A DNA stretch of 11,583 bases, from NCBI GenBank assembly GCA_002686955.1, contig NYZA01000030.1:1-11583 (forward strand). Direction: 5' to 3'. This document shows, one piece after another, positions 2,208 through 10,243 of the stretch. Origin of the DNA: Gemmatimonadota bacterium (GTDB lineage: Bacteria > GCA-2686955). The notes under the pieces are model-generated. The model was not told the origin of the DNA and made no database searches. It saw only the letters and a program-made list of their open reading frames with translations. The translations under genes were made by a program, and so were the position numbers. The stretch's first letter is position 1. Every line of letters begins with the position of its first letter.

Positions 2208-3689
2208 GTGGCGAACGTCATCCTTGTCTATCCTGTCACCGGCCTGGACGTCAGGGGCGTAACGGTGTGGCTGCCCTTGTCGGTCCTCACCGTGGCATCG
2301 ACGCTGACCGGTGACTACGAGGTGGTGATCGTCGACCAGCGGACCGATCCGGACTGGCGGGAGTCGATCAGCAGGCATCTGACTAGAGACACTTTGTGTG
2401 TCGGCATCTCCTCGATGACCGGTACACAGATACGCTACGGCCTGAAAGCCGCGGAATGGACGCGACGAATTGCTCCGGATCTGCCGATCGTTTGGGGAGG
2501 GAACCACCCGACTCTGCTTCCCGAGCAGACGGCCCGACATCCGCTGGTCGATATCGTTGTAATGGGGGAAGGGGAGGCCACATTTCGCTCCCTTGTGAAT
2601 GCGTTCAAGGCCGGGCGCGATTGGAAGACGACCGCCAACATCGCATTCAAGAAGGGCGAGGGGGTAGCGGTCCAGGGTTCAGGCTACGATTTCGTCGATC
2701 CAGGAGCCATGCCTGAACTTCCTTATGAGCTCATAGACGTCGAAAACTATGTCTCCGGCAATCTGCTCTTCGGTCACAAGGTGCGTAGTCTTCCCTTCAT
2801 CACTTCATCGGGGTGTCCGTACGCTTGCACTTTCTGCTGCCAGCCGGTCCTCTCGAATCGGAGGTGGCGACGCATGGATCCGGACATGGTCGTCGAGCGT
2901 ACCTTCGCCCTGAAGGAGCGTTACGATCTCGATGCGATCGAGTTTCACGACGAGGAGTTCTTCGTGGACCGTCTGCGAGGGGCAAGGATCGCCGAGAGGA
3001 TCGGCGGAGCCTTCGACTGGTACGCCCAGACCCGCATGGACGATCTGCTCGAAGTCGACCTCGCCAAACTCGAGAGATGCGGCATGCGCTCCTTGCAGCT
3101 TGGGCTCGAAAGTGGTTCCAACAGGGTTCTCGATCTGGTCAAGAAACAGGAGACCGTGGAACAGTACCGCGCCGCCAATACTGCCCTGGCACGCACGGGG
3201 ATCCAAGCTACCTACAACTTCATGATGGGTTTTCCGACGGAGACGGAGGAAGAGCTGAAGGCCACGGTACGCCTTGTTCTGGAGCTAACGGCGTCGAACC
3301 CAAATGCATATGTGGCTGGGTTCTATGTGTTCGTTCCTTATCCCGGATCGGCGCTCTACGACCTGGCGCTGGCCAACGGATTTCGCCCGCCGGAGAGCTT
3401 GAGCGGATGGAGCCAATTCAATCGACACAATATTGCTGCTCCGTGGATCGAGGACAAGACGCATATGGAGTTCCTGATGGTGACCTCGAAGCTGATCGAC
3501 GGCAGGCGGCTGCGAGGAGGGCTCGGGGTGCCGTGGCCAGCGAAAGAGGTCTTGGGCCTCCTGAGTAGGCGCTACCGGTCCCGCTGGGAGGCTCACGCCC
3601 TGGCGATGACCTGGGATGCGAAGCTCCTATCTATGTTCACCCGGCGCTTCTTGAGCGGCGAGAGTTTCCTCTCCAGCACGAGGCCATGA
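2208..3689 (+). CDS. B12-binding-domain radical SAM protein
   Basis: A 493-residue protein of the cobalamin-binding radical SAM class (BchE/COG1032-like). Residues 1-135 form a Rossmann-like B12-binding-type domain: I-L-V-Y-P at 5-9, V-W-G-G-N-H-P-T-L at 95-103 and V-V-M-G-E-G-E at 117-123. The D-x-H-x-x-G motif of base-off B12 enzymes is absent (I-V-D-Q-R-T at 41-46), as in many relatives. The radical SAM barrel begins with C203-x3-C207-x2-C210, which binds the 4Fe-4S cluster that splits S-adenosylmethionine. It includes F-H-D-E-E-F-F-V-D at 246-254, G-L-E-S-G-S at 299-304 and M-G-F-P-T-E-T at 340-346. Such enzymes methylate, cyclise or rearrange unactivated carbons; the substrate here cannot be read. 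Its TGA overlaps the ATG of the next gene (ATGA), so the two are probably translated together. No membrane segment is seen. Confidence 0.88.
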   Translation: MANVILVYPVTGLDVRGVTVWLPLSVLTVASTLTGDYEVVIVDQRTDPDWRESISRHLTRDTLCVGISSMTGTQIRYGLKAAEWTRRIAPDLPIVWGGNHPTLLPEQTARHPLVDIVVMGEGEATFRSLVNAFKAGRDWKTTANIAFKKGEGVAVQGSGYDFVDPGAMPELPYELIDVENYVSGNLLFGHKVRSLPFITSSGCPYACTFCCQPVLSNRRWRRMDPDMVVERTFALKERYDLDAIEFHDEEFFVDRLRGARIAERIGGAFDWYAQTRMDDLLEVDLAKLERCGMRSLQLGLESGSNRVLDLVKKQETVEQYRAANTALARTGIQATYNFMMGFPTETEEELKATVRLVLELTASNPNAYVAGFYVFVPYPGSALYDLALANGFRPPESLSGWSQFNRHNIAAPWIEDKTHMEFLMVTSKLIDGRRLRGGLGVPWPAKEVLGLLSRRYRSRWEAHALAMTWDAKLLSMFTRRFLSGESFLSSTRP

Positions 3690-5884
3690 CACCATCCCGA
3701 GGGTCTCGCCTGAGCATCATCGTGCCGGTCAGCCGTGGACCGGAGTTCATCGAGACTCTGATCCGAAGCCTCGAAAGGCAAAGCCTCCCGGGACTATGCG
3801 AGCTCGTGCTCGTCACGGACGGACCGGCTTCGTACGACTCCGACCGGATTGCTCTCGAGACCGTAGTTTCGCCTAGCCCTCACCCGAGCTCGAAGAGGAA
3901 TGTTGGGGTAGGCCAGGCTGCCAACACGGAATACCTCGCTTTCATAGACGACGACGTCCGCCTCGAGCCGGACTGGGTCGAGCAGGTGCTCAGGGCGCTC
4001 GATGCTGGGGCCGACGTCGTTACCGGTCCCACCGACCTTCCCTATTCCGATGGGTTTCGGCAGAAAGCCGCCAACGGAATCGTCTGTTCCCCTCTTTTCA
4101 GCCTGAAGAAGACGCTCGCGAATCCGGCGCGGGAGCAGGTCCCTTTCTACGAGGTCTCCCTCTGCAATGTAGCCATGAAGAGACGCGTCTGGGAGGATGT
4201 CGGCGGCTTCAACGAGGTGGCGTACTACTGGGTGGATGATGCGGAGTTTTTCTTCATCGCGCGGCGTCACGGCTTCGAGCTCTGGAATGATCCGACGGTT
4301 CGCGCCGCCCACTACAAGCGACCGCTTCTGTGGCCGCTCATGCATCAGTATTTTCGTCAGAGGTGGTACGCGGGACTCTCGACCTGGCAGTTCCCGGAGC
4401 TCTATCTGCCTCAGGCTGGAGTCGTGGCGGCGGCGATCTTGTTGGTGGCCCTAGTCGTCGTCTTCCTCGTCGGACTGATCGGCTCCGAACAGATGCGTCT
4501 AATGCTTGTCGCCACACCGGCAGGGGTGACTCTCGCGGGGCTGGCAACCGTCGTGATTTGGGGCGGCCGTTCTGTTTCGCCGTCGAAGCGGGTGGGGCGG
4601 GTGTTCATCTCCGGTGCGTCTCTCGCACTGTGCGTTGGGGCCACGTTGCTTGGTTTCTGGGGCGGGCTGATCTGGGGACCCTTCTATCGTTTGTGGGAAC
4701 CAACCGCGAGGGGATATAGGCGATTTCGCTATCGAGACCGCGCGAGTGAGTTCGAGGGGAAGGAGATCGTTCAGCCTTCTCGGTCCGTTCTCCGTCAGAC
4801 CATGCCGATGCGCCTCTGGACCGGTCGCTTTCCGCAATGGCTCATCTATTTCGTCACGGCTCGGTGCAACGCGCGTTGCCCAATGTGCTTCTATCTCGAC
4901 GAGATCGAAGACGCGAAGTCTTCGAAGGAGCTTGCGCCGGAGGAGGTCCGCCGGATCGTCGCGTCGATTCCCCCCATCACCTACTTCTCCCTCTCGGGGG
5001 GCGAGCCTTTCTTGAGGGACGATCTCAGCGACCTGGTTCAGGCTTTCATCAACGGTCCGAATCCCATCTATGTCTCCATTCCGACGAACGGATCTTTCCC
5101 GGATCGGGTCGAACGCGCCTTCGAAGTTCTTTCGAGGCGCAATTATTTGACCAATTTCGATCTGCATCTATCGCTGGACGGGCCTCCGGAGGTGCACGAC
5201 AGGATACGCGGTTCCCAGGCCACCTACGCACATGTGATGGAGACGCACCGGGCCGTGCTTCCTCTGGCGAGGCGGAGGGACAACGTGAGCATCAAGTTCG
5301 TCGTGACCTGTTCGACGGAGAACATCGACCATCTCGAGGATTTCCTCGAGCACTTGGTCCGCGACGTGGAATGCGACAGGGTCAGCCTCAACCCTCTGCA
5401 CGGGAACTTCAGGGACAAGGAGATGGCCGTCGATCCTGCGCGCTATCTTGCTCTCGTACGCAGGGTGTACGGGCTCACCGATAAGAGGGGCTACAGGGGA
5501 CCCCGCTACCGGCTCTTCAACGCCATCAAGCGCGTCATGGATGGACGGCTCGAGACGATCCACCAGCAGGGGGACTTTGGGAGGATCTGCGGTGCGGGGA
5601 AGAAGATCGCGGTGATCGGTCCCCAGGGAGACGTGCTCCCCTGCGAGCCGCTGCAGGAATCGGTCGGCGGCCTGAGGGACCACGACTATGATCCGCGGCG
5701 GGTGCTCGCGGGCGAAGCGATGGGGGCATTCGCGGAGAAGCACCTGGGGACCGGCAAGTGTCACTGCAATTGGGGGTGCGCCATAGGCAACGCCCTGGTT
5801 CATGACCCCTGGTTCTATCCCGCGGTTGGGCGGGAGCTGCTGCGGGGGGTTTTCGAGGCGAGAGACGGTCGGAGCGGTAGGTAG
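3686..5884 (+). CDS. Glycosyltransferase family 2 / membrane / radical SAM fusion protein
   Basis: One uninterrupted 732-residue frame holds three parts. Residues 8-215 are a GT-A fold family 2 glycosyltransferase: S-I-I-V-P-V-S at 10-16, S-K-R-N at 69-72, F-I-D-D-D at 86-90 (metal and nucleotide-sugar site) and W-V-D-D-A-E at 182-187 (likely catalytic acids). Residues 243-333 hold three hydrophobic stretches (about 244-266, 272-292, 307-332). Residues 385-732 are a radical SAM domain with C394-x3-C398-x2-C401, S-G-G-E-P-F at 437-442 and H-L-S-L-D-G at 494-499. Its C-terminal region carries C635, C653, C692, C694 and C698, resembling a SPASM-type auxiliary cluster site. Glycosyltransferases of this type extend lipid-linked or surface glycans. 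The radical SAM half could modify the same product or a carrier, which is inference. Start ATG at 3686 overlaps the preceding stop; GAGG sits only two bases upstream. The fusion is unusual. Confidence 0.87.
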   Translation: MTPSRGSRLSIIVPVSRGPEFIETLIRSLERQSLPGLCELVLVTDGPASYDSDRIALETVVSPSPHPSSKRNVGVGQAANTEYLAFIDDDVRLEPDWVEQVLRALDAGADVVTGPTDLPYSDGFRQKAANGIVCSPLFSLKKTLANPAREQVPFYEVSLCNVAMKRRVWEDVGGFNEVAYYWVDDAEFFFIARRHGFELWNDPTVRAAHYKRPLLWPLMHQYFRQRWYAGLSTWQFPELYLPQAGVVAAAILLVALVVVFLVGLIGSEQMRLMLVATPAGVTLAGLATVVIWGGRSVSPSKRVGRVFISGASLALCVGATLLGFWGGLIWGPFYRLWEPTARGYRRFRYRDRASEFEGKEIVQPSRSVLRQTMPMRLWTGRFPQWLIYFVTARCNARCPMCFYLDEIEDAKSSKELAPEEVRRIVASIPPITYFSLSGGEPFLRDDLSDLVQAFINGPNPIYVSIPTNGSFPDRVERAFEVLSRRNYLTNFDLHLSLDGPPEVHDRIRGSQATYAHVMETHRAVLPLARRRDNVSIKFVVTCSTENIDHLEDFLEHLVRDVECDRVSLNPLHGNFRDKEMAVDPARYLALVRRVYGLTDKRGYRGPRYRLFNAIKRVMDGRLETIHQQGDFGRICGAGKKIAVIGPQGDVLPCEPLQESVGGLRDHDYDPRRVLAGEAMGAFAEKHLGTGKCHCNWGCAIGNALVHDPWFYPAVGRELLRGVFEARDGRSGR

Positions 5885-5965
5885 ATGGCTTGGCTTCCGA
5901 GCGGCGAAGGGCTCGCACGTGGCTATCCTATCGGTAGCCGGATTCTCGCGGCACCTTCCAGCCCC

Positions 5966-6505
5966 ATGGAACCGATGTTCCGCCACCTGATCGCAAGAAT
6001 CCTGCTCGCGTCACTCGCACAGCCCGCGACGGCGCAGTTGATTCCGCAAAAGGAAAATGCAACGAACTATGTGGCCACCGAGGCGATCGCGATTCTCCCG
6101 AACAACACGGGCGACGAGGCTCTCGAGCTCCTCAATCGACTGAGTGGCACTCAATGGTTCTCGGAATCGAGCCGTCTCTATGAGGTGAATTCAACGGGCG
6201 AGGTGGAGTACCGGGAGAGAGATCTCCAGCCGGGCGGGACATGGCGCTTGAATGCCGTGTTTGGCGCTCACCAAGGCGACTGGCACGCTGCGCTCGAAGC
6301 GTATCGCAACAACTATGCGATCCTCTTCATGAACGGCACCGAATGGGCTACGCCCCATCGGGAAGTCCTGCACTCCCCGGAACCGGTAGCTGCTTCATCA
6401 GCGGGAACGGATGGTTCGGTGGCTTCGACGGACGCCTTGACGGTATTAGGGACACTTTCGGGGGAGGAGATCCGGGAGACGGTTCGTCGGTCATCGCACG
6501 GATAG
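5966..6505 (+). CDS. Small exported protein, LamG-like, possibly frameshifted
   Basis: The frame is open from an ATG at 5885, directly after the stop of the fusion gene, but a signal peptide (M-F-R-H-L-I-A-R-I-L-L-A-S-L-A, cleavage after A-T-A-Q) starts only at the ATGs at 5966 or 5975, so 5966 is preferred; no good ribosome binding site decides it. The mature part has G-D-W-H and I-L-F-M-N-G-T-E, which resemble the W-H-H-V-A and L-Y-V-N-G-V-E strands of concanavalin-like (LamG_3) domains. In this frame the C-terminus (after about 6365) looks random. The +2-shifted frame (codons starting at 6361) instead reads G-S-C-F-I-S-G-N-G-W-F-G-G-F-D-G-R-L-D-G-I-R to a TAA at 6520-6522, the usual closing strands of such a domain. 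A frameshift near 6336-6400 is therefore likely. It may be carried on the same transcript as the two genes before it. Function unknown. Confidence 0.5.
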   Translation: MEPMFRHLIARILLASLAQPATAQLIPQKENATNYVATEAIAILPNNTGDEALELLNRLSGTQWFSESSRLYEVNSTGEVEYRERDLQPGGTWRLNAVFGAHQGDWHAALEAYRNNYAILFMNGTEWATPHREVLHSPEPVAASSAGTDGSVASTDALTVLGTLSGEEIRETVRRSSHG

Positions 6506-7267
6506 CGATTCCAGGGCGATAAGAGCCGCGCCGTAGGCCCCCATGAGCTGGGGGTGCTCAGGCACCACGACCTCGACGTCGAGCTCCTCGCCGAGGAAGC
6601 GGCGAACCGCGGCGTTCTGAGCGACACCGCCCGAGAGCATCACTGGCTTCTCGAGGCCGGTGCTGCGAACCAGCGCGCCGACGCGTCGGACCAGAGAGCG
6701 GTGTAGTCCGGCGATGATCTCCCCCACCGGAAGCCCTTCGGCAATGAGCGAGACGATTTCCGACTCGGCAAAGACGGTGCAGGTAGACGAGATATCCCGA
6801 TCCCGCTCGGCATGCAGGGCGGCGTCGGAGAAGGCGTCGATATCGAGTTTCAGGCGCCGGGCGGCTACCTCCAAGAAACGTCCCGTCCCAGCGGCGCATT
6901 TGTCGTTCATCGCGAAGTTCGCAACTTTGCCCGTGTGGCCGACGACTATTACCTTGGAATCCTGGCCGCCGATGTCGATCAGGGTGCCGCCGTGACCGGT
7001 TTGCGTGTAGACACCTTTGCAATGACAGGTGATTTCGGTGACCGAACGGTCGGCCGCCGCAAGGCGACGCCCATGACCTGTTGCGACCACCGGCGCCGGG
7101 CTGCCGGCGACCTCGCGGGCTATGGTAATGATCCTCTCGATCTGCAAGCGCAAGCGCGGGTCGGTCTCCTCCAGGAGATGCCAGCGGGCGCGGCCTTCAG
7201 CGTCAACCCCCACGGCTTTGGTAGTGGTCGAGCCCGCGTCGATTCCGATCGCGCGAACATCGCTCAC
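6491..7267 (-). CDS. BcrAD/BadFG/HgdC-family ATPase, activator of 2-hydroxyacyl-CoA dehydratase/benzoyl-CoA reductase
   Basis: A 258-residue cytoplasmic ATPase of the acetate/sugar kinase fold that carries an oxygen-sensitive 4Fe-4S cluster between two subunits. It drives an electron, at the cost of ATP, into the dehydratase or reductase. Visible motifs are G-I-D-A-G-S-T-T-T-K at 8-17 (phosphate 1), A-T-G-H-G-R at 62-67, I-D-I-G-G-Q-D-S-K at 97-105 and S-G-G-V-A-Q-N at 212-218 (adenosine). The cluster cysteines are C124 in N-D-K-C-A-A-G-T-G and C163 in S-S-T-C-T-V-F-A-E-S-E. The length matches HgdC-type activators, which work as homodimers; no second ATPase gene is present, unlike BcrA/BcrD pairs. 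The start is GTG at 7267, overlapping the stop of the gene before it (GTGA), with GAGG seven bases upstream at 7275-7278. It is the last gene of the leftward operon and converges on the + strand LamG-like gene. Confidence 0.92.
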   Translation of the reverse strand: MSDVRAIGIDAGSTTTKAVGVDAEGRARWHLLEETDPRLRLQIERIITIAREVAGSPAPVVATGHGRRLAAADRSVTEITCHCKGVYTQTGHGGTLIDIGGQDSKVIVVGHTGKVANFAMNDKCAAGTGRFLEVAARRLKLDIDAFSDAALHAERDRDISSTCTVFAESEIVSLIAEGLPVGEIIAGLHRSLVRRVGALVRSTGLEKPVMLSGGVAQNAAVRRFLGEELDVEVVVPEHPQLMGAYGAALIALESLSVR

Positions 7268-8595
7268 GCGGCGTCCTCAAGAAGCTCCAGGAACGCCTCC
7301 AGGCGGGTGCGGACGGGACCTTCGGAGAAGGCGCGCGGATCGTTGTGATCCGCTTCGAGAAGGAGCGCCGCGGCGCCGGTGCTCTTGTTGATGCGATCGG
7401 TTTGATCGACCTGGCCGATGGAATAGGGCTTGCAGCTGCGGTCGGAATGCAGAATGACTCCGTCGGCCTCGAATCGGCTCACCATATCGGTGATGAGAGC
7501 GAGCTTGTGTCCCGTTCCGCGGTTCAGAATCGGGTGCAGATGCACACGCGCCGCCGATTCGAGCGGATTCGATACATCCACCAGATCCGCCAGCTCGCCC
7601 CAGGCGTTGGTGTAGGTCGAGGCCACCATTGCCACCCCCCGCTCGGCGAGAAGCTCCGCAAGCCACTTGATCCGAAACCAGATCGGCAGATTGTCCCACA
7701 CCAGTCGGTGACGCTCGTTCTTCACCGCGCCGATTCCCTTTTTCTTGCGCTCGTTGAGCTCATCCAAGACGGTGCCGTAGAAGTCGACCGTGAACGCCTC
7801 GCCGCGCATTTCGACGATCGGAGCCATGCAGATGAACTGATCGAAAGCGGTGATCGGCGCCGGTCGGTGCCGCGCGGACTCGATGATCGCCTTCCACAGA
7901 TCGGTTGCCTGTTTCGACAAGCGCGTGGTCGCGTCGAAGTCCCTGGGGTCGAGCGACCGCCCGGCGACACGTTCGGCCGTGGCGATCGCTTCTTCGATTT
8001 GGGCTTTGGTGTAGTCCAGGTCACGCTGCCGAGCCTCGCCGTACAGAAAAGGTGTATCGATGACGATGAGAGGAACGTCGAAGTGGTGGGCGAGAGCTTT
8101 GTACCAGTACAGCACGGTCTGGCAGATGTTGGTGCAGCAGAGGAGCAGATCGGGACGGGGAAGCGATCCCGCCGGTCCTTTGTTCGAAAGCATGGCGCCG
8201 AAGTCGGTGCGGGCGTAGGAACAGATATCGCGTGACCAACCGGCGCCTTCGGCCACGTCGCTCAGCTCCTCGCTGATTCGGCGAATGCCGCACATCGCCC
8301 CATGGTTTTCCGGATAATGTGGGAAATAACCCAACGCCACCAGGAACTCCATCGGTGCGCCCGAGCTGATCCAGGCCACCTTCTTGTGCCCCGGCGCGAA
8401 CTTCCCTTTCAGGTAGTGGTGGCTGATCAGCTCTTTCAGTCGTCCCGAGCTGAGCAGCGGCGGCGCGATATGTTGGTGTTTCCACCAGTTGGGATTCGCG
8501 AGCTTCCTTTCGAGCAGAATGCGTTGCCACCGCAGCACGCCCGAGCCGATGATATTCGCGCCGACATGGTAGCGGAGGGAATCGAGCACGCTCAT
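7264..8595 (-). CDS. 2-hydroxyacyl-CoA dehydratase/benzoyl-CoA reductase family, larger subunit
   Basis: A 443-residue subunit of the BcrB/HgdA-type family, which with its partner carries 4Fe-4S clusters and removes water from 2-hydroxyacyl-CoA or reduces an aromatic acyl-CoA. Family features are W-I-S-S-G-A-P-M-E at 75-83, C125-S-Y-A-R, L-P-R-P-D-L-L-L-C-C at 145-154 with N-I-C158, and H-S-D-R-S-C388-K-P. Cluster ligands probably come from C125, C154 or C158, and C388. The length is close to BcrB (about 430-440). The start is ATG at 8595 because it overlaps the preceding stop (ATGA), has GGAG eight bases upstream (8604-8607), and begins the recognisable sequence M-S-V-L-D-S-L-R. An upstream in-frame ATG at 8655 would add 20 proline-rich residues and lies inside the preceding gene. 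Whether it is a dehydratase or a reductase cannot be told by eye. Confidence 0.88.
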   Translation of the reverse strand: MSVLDSLRYHVGANIIGSGVLRWQRILLERKLANPNWWKHQHIAPPLLSSGRLKELISHHYLKGKFAPGHKKVAWISSGAPMEFLVALGYFPHYPENHGAMCGIRRISEELSDVAEGAGWSRDICSYARTDFGAMLSNKGPAGSLPRPDLLLCCTNICQTVLYWYKALAHHFDVPLIVIDTPFLYGEARQRDLDYTKAQIEEAIATAERVAGRSLDPRDFDATTRLSKQATDLWKAIIESARHRPAPITAFDQFICMAPIVEMRGEAFTVDFYGTVLDELNERKKKGIGAVKNERHRLVWDNLPIWFRIKWLAELLAERGVAMVASTYTNAWGELADLVDVSNPLESAARVHLHPILNRGTGHKLALITDMVSRFEADGVILHSDRSCKPYSIGQVDQTDRINKSTGAAALLLEADHNDPRAFSEGPVRTRLEAFLELLEDAA

Positions 8596-9692
8596 CTCAG
8601 GGTCTCCACGAGGGCCTGGGCGCGGGTGACGGCCTGGTTGGGTAGGGGCTCGCATACGTCGGCTTCGATGACGATCGACCGAAGCCCCGCGGCTTCCAGC
8701 GTTGGCCGCATCTGTGGGAGGTAGAAGAGCTCGGGCTCACAGAACTTCACCAGAAAATGGAGCACGGCCTTCGCACCGCCGGCCGCGGCCAAGGCAACCA
8801 GGTGGTCCGCGCGGGCCTGGATTTCGGCGCCCCTAGTCGAGTCGGGTGGGGCACTCAGCAAGCGTTCGGCCATGCGGCGCAGCGGATCCTCCGAGGAGCC
8901 CTCACCGTAGAGACGTCGCCCCGAGCAAGCCATGTCGTCGCCCACCACCCTTCCCCCCGCCTCCTCGATGGCATCGAGAATTCCCATCGGCTCCGGGACC
9001 AGACCCGAGATCACGACTGCCGGCCTATCGTCCAATTCCCCCAGGGGCTCAGTCAGGTACCCTTGCACGATCCGTGTGAATTGCTCCGCGGGAAGATACT
9101 CGCGGGACCGCACGAGTCGATAGAAGTCTCTTTCTCCCAAGTCGATGCGGCGCCGGGAAGAGAGCAGCTGGGCGAGCAGCGCGTCGGCCTTGGTCTCTCG
9201 ATCGATCGCCTCTCTCAGGGCTGCCGCACTTGGCTGCTCGCCAACGATTTCGGCGAGCTTCTCGAACACGGCAGCAAGTTCTCGGTTGAGGAAATCTATC
9301 CGAGTCACGCCACTGCCGCCGCGAGGGGAGTAGATCGTCAGAACCGGTCGCCGCTCATCGACGAAATCGATGAGCATCGAACCCATTCCTTGCAGGCTGT
9401 CGCAGGCATGGGGGACGACGATCAGGTCGGCCACGTCGACCCCACCATCGAGTAGAAAGGACAAGCCGCCGCGAACGATTGAGCAGGTGTATGCCTGCAA
9501 GTGTCGATCGCCCGAGGCCGTGCGGGTGCCCGGCGGTCCCCAGACCTCCATCGGCAGGACCCCAAACGCTCGGAGCAGCTCACGGGGGTAGTGGATGGGG
9601 TAGACCGCGGCGATGCGGCCGCCGTCCGCCTTCCAGTCCGCGGCCACTTCTTTGCGGGAGGGGAGATTCAGCTTGGTCACGGCTCTGAGCAT
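8592..9692 (-). CDS. 2-hydroxyacyl-CoA dehydratase/benzoyl-CoA reductase family, smaller subunit
   Basis: A 366-residue subunit of the HgdB/BcrC type. Conserved-looking parts are Y-P-I-H-Y-P-R-E-L-L at 31-40 (cf. family Y-x-P-x-E-L), A-F-G-V-L-P-M-E-V-W-G at 42-52, Q-A-Y-T-C70-S, V-P-H-A-C97-D-S-L, G-D-D-M-A-C256-S and H-F-L-V-K-F-C318-E-P-E. C70, C97 and C318 sit where the three cluster ligands of this family are found. It should pair with the 443-residue protein encoded next, and be activated by the ATPase after that. The frame is open to 10130, but the sequence before M-L-R-A-V-T is arginine- and glycine-rich shadow coding of the membrane protein gene, so the ATG at 9692 is chosen. A weak GAGCGAG lies just upstream. 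It overlaps the preceding gene by 16 bases and the next by 4. Cytoplasmic; substrate unknown. Confidence 0.88.
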   Translation of the reverse strand: MLRAVTKLNLPSRKEVAADWKADGGRIAAVYPIHYPRELLRAFGVLPMEVWGPPGTRTASGDRHLQAYTCSIVRGGLSFLLDGGVDVADLIVVPHACDSLQGMGSMLIDFVDERRPVLTIYSPRGGSGVTRIDFLNRELAAVFEKLAEIVGEQPSAAALREAIDRETKADALLAQLLSSRRRIDLGERDFYRLVRSREYLPAEQFTRIVQGYLTEPLGELDDRPAVVISGLVPEPMGILDAIEEAGGRVVGDDMACSGRRLYGEGSSEDPLRRMAERLLSAPPDSTRGAEIQARADHLVALAAAGGAKAVLHFLVKFCEPELFYLPQMRPTLEAAGLRSIVIEADVCEPLPNQAVTRAQALVETLR

Positions 9693-10243
9693 ACTCGCTC
9701 GCGAAAGACCCACCGCACCAAGATCCAATAGGCGAAAGGAGCGGCCAACCAGATCAGCTGCGGCAAGAGCGTGATCGACTCTCCCCTGAGCTCGAAGAGG
9801 GACCCATTCCACCGGTGAGTCGGATCGTAGGCCCAGCCACCGCAGACCACGGATGAGAGCTCGACCAGGAGCGCCGAGAGCTGGCCCCAAGCCAGCAGAA
9901 GGGCGAGCTCCGGCGCGCCGGGGTGGCGTGCGGCGTCCGTGCCCCGAATCGCGGCGACGATCACCATCCCCGCAAGGAAGAGCCCCCCGTCCCACAGGGT
10001 GTGAGACACGAACAACACCGAGGGATGAACCGGAGGGGGCACAACGAATTGAATCAAAGGCGTGGGGCTGGCGAGGGCTGACCAGAAGATCGGCAGCTCC
10101 CAGGTGAGCCCCAGCGCCACACCGAGCCAATAGAGTTGCGCGACCGATGTGGCCCGCAGTGGACCCACGGCCAGCCCTGTGACGACCAAGGGCAGACCGA
10201 AGCCAACCGCCAGATCAGCGACGTAGTAGAGGAGTGCCGGCAT
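9677..10243 (-). CDS. Polytopic membrane protein of unknown function
   Basis: A 188-residue hydrophobic protein with about five membrane helices (near 7-28, 35-57, 77-98, 111-134, 156-177). Between them are polar, possibly conserved stretches: S-H-T-L-W-D-G-G at 80-87, G-G-W-A-Y-D-P-T-H-R-W-N at 136-147 and E-L-R-G-E-S-I-T at 151-158. Buried E49, H81, D85 and E128 could form a site in the membrane. I do not recognise the family. It overlaps the propeller gene upstream by 29 bases and the smaller dehydratase subunit downstream by 16, so it is firmly placed in the operon. A role in supplying substrate, lipid or electrons to the dehydratase is possible but is only inferred from position. The start ATG at 10243 is the first in frame and opens directly into the first helix; no clear ribosome binding site is seen, consistent with coupling to the gene before. 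Confidence 0.75.
   Translation of the reverse strand: MPALLYYVADLAVGFGLPLVVTGLAVGPLRATSVAQLYWLGVALGLTWELPIFWSALASPTPLIQFVVPPPVHPSVLFVSHTLWDGGLFLAGMVIVAAIRGTDAARHPGAPELALLLAWGQLSALLVELSSVVCGGWAYDPTHRWNGSLFELRGESITLLPQLIWLAAPFAYWILVRWVFRERVCSEP

Follow-up and report, generated by a model that had tools for sequence, protein, structure and literature searches.

A recurrent fusion of a family 2 glycosyltransferase with a twitch radical SAM enzyme in a Gemmatimonadota bacterium

The window analyzed here is the whole of an 11,583-bp contig (NYZA01000030.1) from the 4.28-Mb, 84.5% complete assembly of a Gemmatimonadota bacterium. One of its genes encodes a single protein in which a family 2 glycosyltransferase (GT2), hydrophobic segments and a radical S-adenosylmethionine (SAM) enzyme with a twitch-type auxiliary domain follow one another. 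The catalytic motifs of both halves are intact, the same architecture is found in four other genomes, glycosyltransferase genes adjoin genes of this radical SAM family across phyla, and related loci lie among glycan genes. We tentatively favour the reading that the protein is anchored in the membrane and contributes two activities to the synthesis of surface glycans or glycolipids: its GT2 domain would glycosylate a lipid-linked acceptor, and its tethered twitch radical SAM domain would edit the same product. Each of the two domains is of a known kind, and it is their recurrent fusion at the membrane that is new. Our literature search found no description of a GT2-radical SAM fusion, nor of a gene pair made of a glycosyltransferase and a radical SAM enzyme. 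A preliminary description of the window had noted that no well-described enzyme has this domain order. This holds for the literature and family libraries that we searched, although the protein is not unique, as the architecture recurs.

Domains and motifs of the fusion protein

The fusion gene (Table 1) is open throughout, without a stop codon, and the codon-position GC pattern is unbroken over the join of the two halves (GC at third positions 0.64 at residues 330-385, 0.60-0.86 elsewhere). The preliminary description had called this frame uninterrupted, which is borne out by the 732 codons and by both Pfam domains scoring above their cutoffs. It had also placed the D88-D89-D90 and C394-x3-C398-x2-C401 motifs and the hydrophobic stretches within residues 244-332; the motifs are exactly at these positions, and the Kyte-Doolittle peaks fall at residues 247-265, 273-291 and 306-324. 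In the GT2 half, D88 is conserved in 26 of 27 aligned sequences trimmed to the catalytic domain, D90 in all 27, and D185, the acidic motif downstream of DxD, in 24. The Pfam score and the DxD motif thus assign this half to GT2.

The profile score, together with the invariance of C394, C398 and C401 in 32 aligned family members, assigns the second half to the radical SAM superfamily. Four further cysteines, C635, C653, C692 and C694, are invariant in the same alignment, which brings the total in this half to seven. The cysteine-rich C-terminal region of the preliminary description is therefore present, and can be refined to a twitch. A full SPASM domain carries the seven-cysteine motif CX9-15GX4C-gap-CX2CX5CX3C-gap-C, while a twitch is a truncated SPASM with four cysteines and one auxiliary cluster (PMC6231123). 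Only the first part of the motif and the CXC are conserved here, and the Pfam SPASM score is 15.2 (cutoff 21.5), which rules out a full SPASM domain. Judged from its sequence, the C-terminal domain is a twitch with one predicted auxiliary cluster. A profile of this domain alone retrieved nothing from the PDB sequences, and neither half of the fusion reached any curated cutoff among the NCBIfam matches listed.

Table 1. Coordinates of the fusion gene, its domains, the preceding gene and the fusions in other genomes. Positions are those of the window or, for the last four rows, of the locus named.
Feature	Positions	Strand	Support
B12-binding radical SAM protein, 493 aa	2208..3689	+	Pfam, both domains above cutoff: B12-binding 60.1 bits (cutoff 32.1), Radical_SAM 76.1 bits (cutoff 29.5)
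Fusion gene GT2 - hydrophobic segments - linker - radical SAM - twitch, 732 aa	3686..5884	+	
GT-A fold family 2 glycosyltransferase domain, residues 1-230; D88/D90 (DxD), D185	3686..4375	+	Pfam PF00535 (Glycos_transf_2) 46.8 bits (cutoff 23.3), residues 10-166
Hydrophobic region, residues 244-332, two or three membrane segments	4415..4681	+	Kyte-Doolittle peaks; low-confidence helices in model
Flexible basic linker, residues 333-378	4682..4819	+	pLDDT <50 at 330-378; 12 K/R in 333-385
Radical SAM core, residues 385-620	4838..5545	+	Pfam PF04055 (Radical_SAM) 60.1 bits (cutoff 29.5), residues 389-556; VIA Z 24.0 to SkfB
CX3CX2C radical SAM cluster motif, residues 394-401	4865..4888	+	Invariant in 32 aligned family members
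Twitch-type auxiliary cluster domain, C635-x12-G648-x4-C653 ... C692-x-C694(-x3-C698)	5588..5779	+	C635, C653, C692 and C694 invariant; CXC as in the SkfB twitch
Fusion L086, Stygiobacter (Ignavibacteriota), 714 aa	7023-9167		
Fusion L097, Omnitrophota, 700 aa	6915-9017		
Fusion L099, Elusimicrobiales (Elusimicrobiota), 875 aa	7509-10136		
Fusion L107, Rhodospirillaceae, 715 aa	7989-10136		

The AlphaFold model of the fusion, built with 56 sequences, has a mean pLDDT (predicted local distance difference test) of 80.7 and a pTM (predicted template modelling score) of 0.71. Both catalytic domains are mostly above 90, and residues 330-378 are below 50, so the relative placement of the domains in the model is unreliable. 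The best VIA matches of the GT half were chondroitin polymerase 2z87 (Z 22.2) and AvpGT (21.4), with RmlT and WrtF also within Z 21-22. The radical SAM half matched SkfB best, over 276 residues covering the radical SAM and twitch domains (18% identity), followed by SuiB (23.0), BlsE (21.3), viperins (21) and DesII (20.2). The predicted fold does not separate peptide from carbohydrate substrates.

SkfB and SuiB are peptide maturases, and SkfB, a twitch radical SAM sactisynthase, has the same CXC in its twitch (PMC6231123). Such matches could suggest a ribosomally synthesized and post-translationally modified peptide (RiPP) pathway, in which the radical SAM half would modify a peptide and GT2 would glycosylate it, as MftC and MftF do in mycofactocin synthesis. 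Of the NCBIfam names, MftF (68.9 bits) and MftC (51.8 bits) indeed score among the highest for the two halves, and mycofactocin synthesis likewise combines a radical SAM enzyme with a GT2. However, these scores reflect a generic similarity: they lie far under the equivalog cutoffs of 280 and 265, which excludes membership of either family, and generic GT2s beside the relatives score similarly for MftF. MftC and MftF are also separate proteins in another gene context. SkfB differs in having an N-terminal RiPP recognition element (RRE) and a peptide substrate, where the fusion has GT2 and membrane segments. No RRE lies N-terminal to the radical SAM core in the same chain, a separate RRE protein not having been searched for: residues 330-378 are disordered in the fusion model, and in stand-alone relatives about 20 residues precede the core, which leaves no room for an SkfB-like N-terminal RRE. 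The window's genome gave no MftB match, in a search without a positive control (no control genome matched), and the neighbours of related loci are glycan genes. A RiPP-type function is thus highly improbable. Among the targets named in the preliminary description (glycan, lipid carrier or peptide), the peptide is disfavoured, because an RRE-like domain is absent before the core and the neighbours are surface-glycan genes.

Fused and adjacent forms in other genomes

A profile of the radical SAM half was scanned over genome contigs and gave 80 loci, among which four more fusions in a single open reading frame (ORF) were found, all in the order GT2, hydrophobic segments, radical SAM (Table 1). 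On a tree of 118 radical SAM halves the five fusions are scattered, and well-supported branches force at least four changes. An approximately unbiased (AU) test rejected the alternative in which the fusions are held together (p = 8.8e-5, an exact value not to be pressed for a quick tree of divergent sequences). From this scatter and the AU rejection, the same fusion has very probably been made more than once.

An assembly or sequencing artefact joining adjacent genes has an almost negligible probability. In G043, the GT2 and radical SAM genes share a reading frame, interrupted by a TGA, and lie 10 nt from each other, so that a single lost stop would fuse them. However, the other four fusions come from unrelated metagenome-assembled genomes (MAGs), which already refutes an artefact for the architecture as such, and the linker of about 50 residues has a coding-like composition. 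The earlier view of a single protein rather than two merged genes agrees with the lack of a stop at residues 340-385, both in the contig and in the four other fused proteins. Further long frames with a radical SAM match were checked as GT2-radical SAM fusions and proved not to be so (L063/G070, L196/G196, L160, L161, L162, L164 and L165): L063/G070 is a frame overlapping a separate GT2, and L196/G196 are separate ORFs about 180 nt apart.

The two halves also occur as neighbouring separate genes in many relatives, a point on which the preliminary description had invited a check. GT2 is either fused to the radical SAM gene or no more than 300 nt away from it on the same strand in 66 of 121 loci (17/40 in a genome-search set, 48/80 in the contig-scan set, plus the window), whereas 40 of 674 genes (~6%) at a distance of four or more genes are GT2s. 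The contig-scan value may be biased upward, as a neighbouring GT2 can add to the ranking match; the genome-search set was found almost entirely by the radical SAM half. The nearest adjacent pair for both halves belongs to a Portnoybacteria genome (L085), where the GT2 and radical SAM genes overlap by 4 bp and a B12-binding radical SAM gene lies just downstream.

Other partners of the same radical SAM family were observed. In L198 (2421-4523, minus strand), a multi-spanning LPG_synthase_TM membrane domain is fused before it in a 700-aa protein. In Parabacteroides distasonis, the radical SAM gene UNS60_RS03265 lies 33 nt ahead of UNS60_RS03260, which encodes a GT28/macrolide-type glycosyltransferase of GT-B fold, unrelated to GT2. 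The family is therefore associated with glycosylation at or near the membrane, and not with one glycosyltransferase fold. The P. distasonis record (L202, NZ_OY725749.1) is labelled a plasmid; it bears glycyl-tRNA synthetase and fumarate reductase genes and may be a piece of chromosome. Also, a single ORF in L199 (2124-4127, plus strand) carries the radical SAM domain and, C-terminal to it, a ferredoxin-reductase-like FAD/NAD module that may supply its electrons.

According to Pfam, the genes around GT2-radical SAM loci include NDP-sugar epimerases, dehydratases, GT4, PMT_2, nucleotidyltransferases and methyltransferases, as well as a Wzx-like flippase, a Bac_transf sugar-phosphate transferase and a polysaccharide deacetylase. 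Judged from these annotations, the context of the related loci is surface-glycan biosynthesis.

Immediately upstream of the fusion gene, the window carries a gene for a B12-dependent radical SAM protein, assigned by its two Pfam domains (Table 1). Its TGA stop overlaps the ATG of the fusion gene by 4 bp (ATGA), and it is a probable operon partner. The gene starts with GTG at 2208, with an ATG in the same frame upstream of it, at 2019. Similar genes are found directly before the L086 fusion, before the GT2-radical SAM pair of L041 and directly after the L097 fusion. In L099, the fusion is directly followed by a 727-aa protein (10133-12316, plus strand) in which a B12-binding radical SAM enzyme is itself fused to a GT2. 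The window's phylum is represented by two genomes in the collection searched, and in the only other genome of its family there, at locus L079, a B12-binding radical SAM gene, a radical SAM gene and a GT2 gene are separate neighbours.

Proposed function and alternatives

In the proposed mechanism, the GT2 domain would work on the inner side of the membrane and transfer a sugar from a nucleotide-sugar donor to a lipid-linked acceptor. The radical SAM domain, kept at the membrane by the same chain, would then generate a 5'-deoxyadenosyl radical that takes a hydrogen from an unreactive carbon of the GT2 product. The sugar could thereby be dehydrogenated, epimerised, deoxygenated or have its ring rearranged, or the lipid could be altered, and the upstream B12-binding radical SAM enzyme would probably act on the same intermediate. 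We infer the membrane-lipid acceptor, the substrate common to both domains and the type of radical reaction; the independent fusions are a strong hint that both steps act together. The preliminary description had suggested that sugar transfer is coupled to radical chemistry, and the repeated fusions, the adjacency in about half of the loci and the GT-B pairing speak for the coupling, with the reaction and the substrate still conjectural.

This one-chain proposal follows the logic of the bacteriohopanetetrol cyclitol ether route, in which N-acetylglucosamine is attached to the lipid by HpnI and deacetylated by HpnK, and the radical SAM enzyme HpnJ forms the cyclitol ether (PMC12583986). In both cases a glycosyltransferase would place a sugar on a membrane lipid that a radical SAM enzyme then remodels; the B12-binding radical SAM protein of the window resembles HpnJ, and the GT2 of L079 weakly resembles HpnI. 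However, the hopanoid enzymes are separate proteins, and the scores in the window are far below the cutoffs. For the B12-binding protein, the best NCBIfam matches were BchE (122; cutoff 481), ApyD (118) and HpnJ (109; cutoff 578), none reaching its cutoff. The HpnH score in the window was 42 (cutoff 225). Squalene-hopene cyclase (PF13249) had no match in the 84.5% complete genome, whereas a B. subtilis control matched. Membership in the hopanoid route is thus excluded.

Several observations weigh against the proposal of glycosylation followed by radical editing. The contig itself has no polysaccharide cluster. The enrichment of B12-binding radical SAM genes near the family is marginal (39/647 within three genes, 17/500 among far genes, p = 0.05); this link is therefore considered likely in the window but not proven across the family, and was not retained as a general rule. 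About half of the radical SAM relatives have no adjacent GT2, including L080-L083, the closest overall to the radical SAM half of the window, which shows that the enzyme can work without a linked GT2. Lastly, if all three hydrophobic segments cross the membrane, GT2 and the radical SAM domain would be on opposite sides, the latter outside the cell. A SAM-dependent Fe-S enzyme is implausible there and should not work. Basic residues flank the hydrophobic segments on both sides (5 K/R in 205-246, 4 in 292-305, 12 in 333-385), so one of the three segments may be re-entrant. The L097 and L099 fusions have two C-terminal segments.

The operons of L080-L083 (Elusimicrobia and Omnitrophota; Brocadiaceae for L080) hold a second radical SAM gene and B12-binding radical SAM genes. 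Those of L081-L083 also hold short-chain dehydrogenases/reductases and a split transketolase (Pfam run on the L081 members), and the L080 locus holds several radical SAM genes, DUF362 and a PHP-associated protein. Their gene content suggests a biosynthetic cluster.

The two halves could instead be enzymes of one pathway, tethered for co-expression or stoichiometry only and acting on different intermediates, the radical SAM enzyme making, for example, an unusual lipid or sugar that GT2 uses later. We regard this as rather unlikely. It would suit the occurrence of GT2 either before or after the radical SAM gene, the choice between a GT2 and a GT-B partner, and the many relatives without an adjacent glycosyltransferase, and there are radical SAM lipid enzymes, HpnH among them, whose target is the lipid moiety (PMC12583986). 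However, in each of several independent fusions GT2 comes first and the radical SAM domain stays near the membrane, which suggests more than a coupling of expression.

It is also unlikely that the radical SAM half is a BtrN/BlsE-like sugar dehydrogenase or decarboxylase acting on a free nucleotide sugar, with the radical step first and the GT2 transfer second. The fold similarity to BlsE and DesII, a weak match of the family profile to the BtrN twitch (E 6e-6) and the donor-modifying neighbours (epimerases, nucleotidyltransferases), which are common, are all consistent with it. BtrN shares a twitch auxiliary domain with the fusion and BlsE its overall fold, but neither is fused to a glycosyltransferase or to membrane segments. 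Moreover, the fold similarity is equally high to peptide and nucleotide radical SAM enzymes, and a step on a soluble donor gives less reason for a membrane tether, which the family also has in its fusion to LPG_synthase_TM.

If the glycosylate-then-edit reading is right, the window would belong to a widespread class of enzymes joining a membrane glycosyltransferase to a twitch radical SAM enzyme, often with a B12-binding partner, that equip the cell surfaces of many phyla, most of them uncultivated, with chemically unusual sugars or lipid headgroups. This generalization is possible, albeit doubtful. The radical SAM family spans many bacterial phyla and some archaea, and we found no characterised member. 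The proposal points to an unstudied route in which sugar-bearing lipids or surface glycans would first be built and then chemically edited, and makes a concrete prediction, namely that the substrate of the radical SAM domain is a lipid-linked sugar. This prediction is testable in Planctomycetes strain Pla86 and P. distasonis, which carry the two-gene form and whose genomes are not MAGs.

Other genes of the window

Right after the stop of the fusion gene lies a 206-aa ORF (5885-6505, plus strand) of uncertain start, which could be a further gene of the operon; Pfam and NCBIfam scans of it gave no match. Convergent on the fusion operon, the region 6491-10130 (minus strand) encodes an HgdC-like activase, which passes the CoA_E_activ cutoff with 218 bits, and two HGD-D proteins, which are 2-hydroxyacyl-CoA dehydratase or benzoyl-CoA reductase-like and missed all equivalog cutoffs. 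On the other side, two overlapping ORFs on the minus strand (1611-2081 and 1088-1816, together 1088-2081) resemble, by eye only, one secreted repeat protein (beta-helix-like) split by a frame change.

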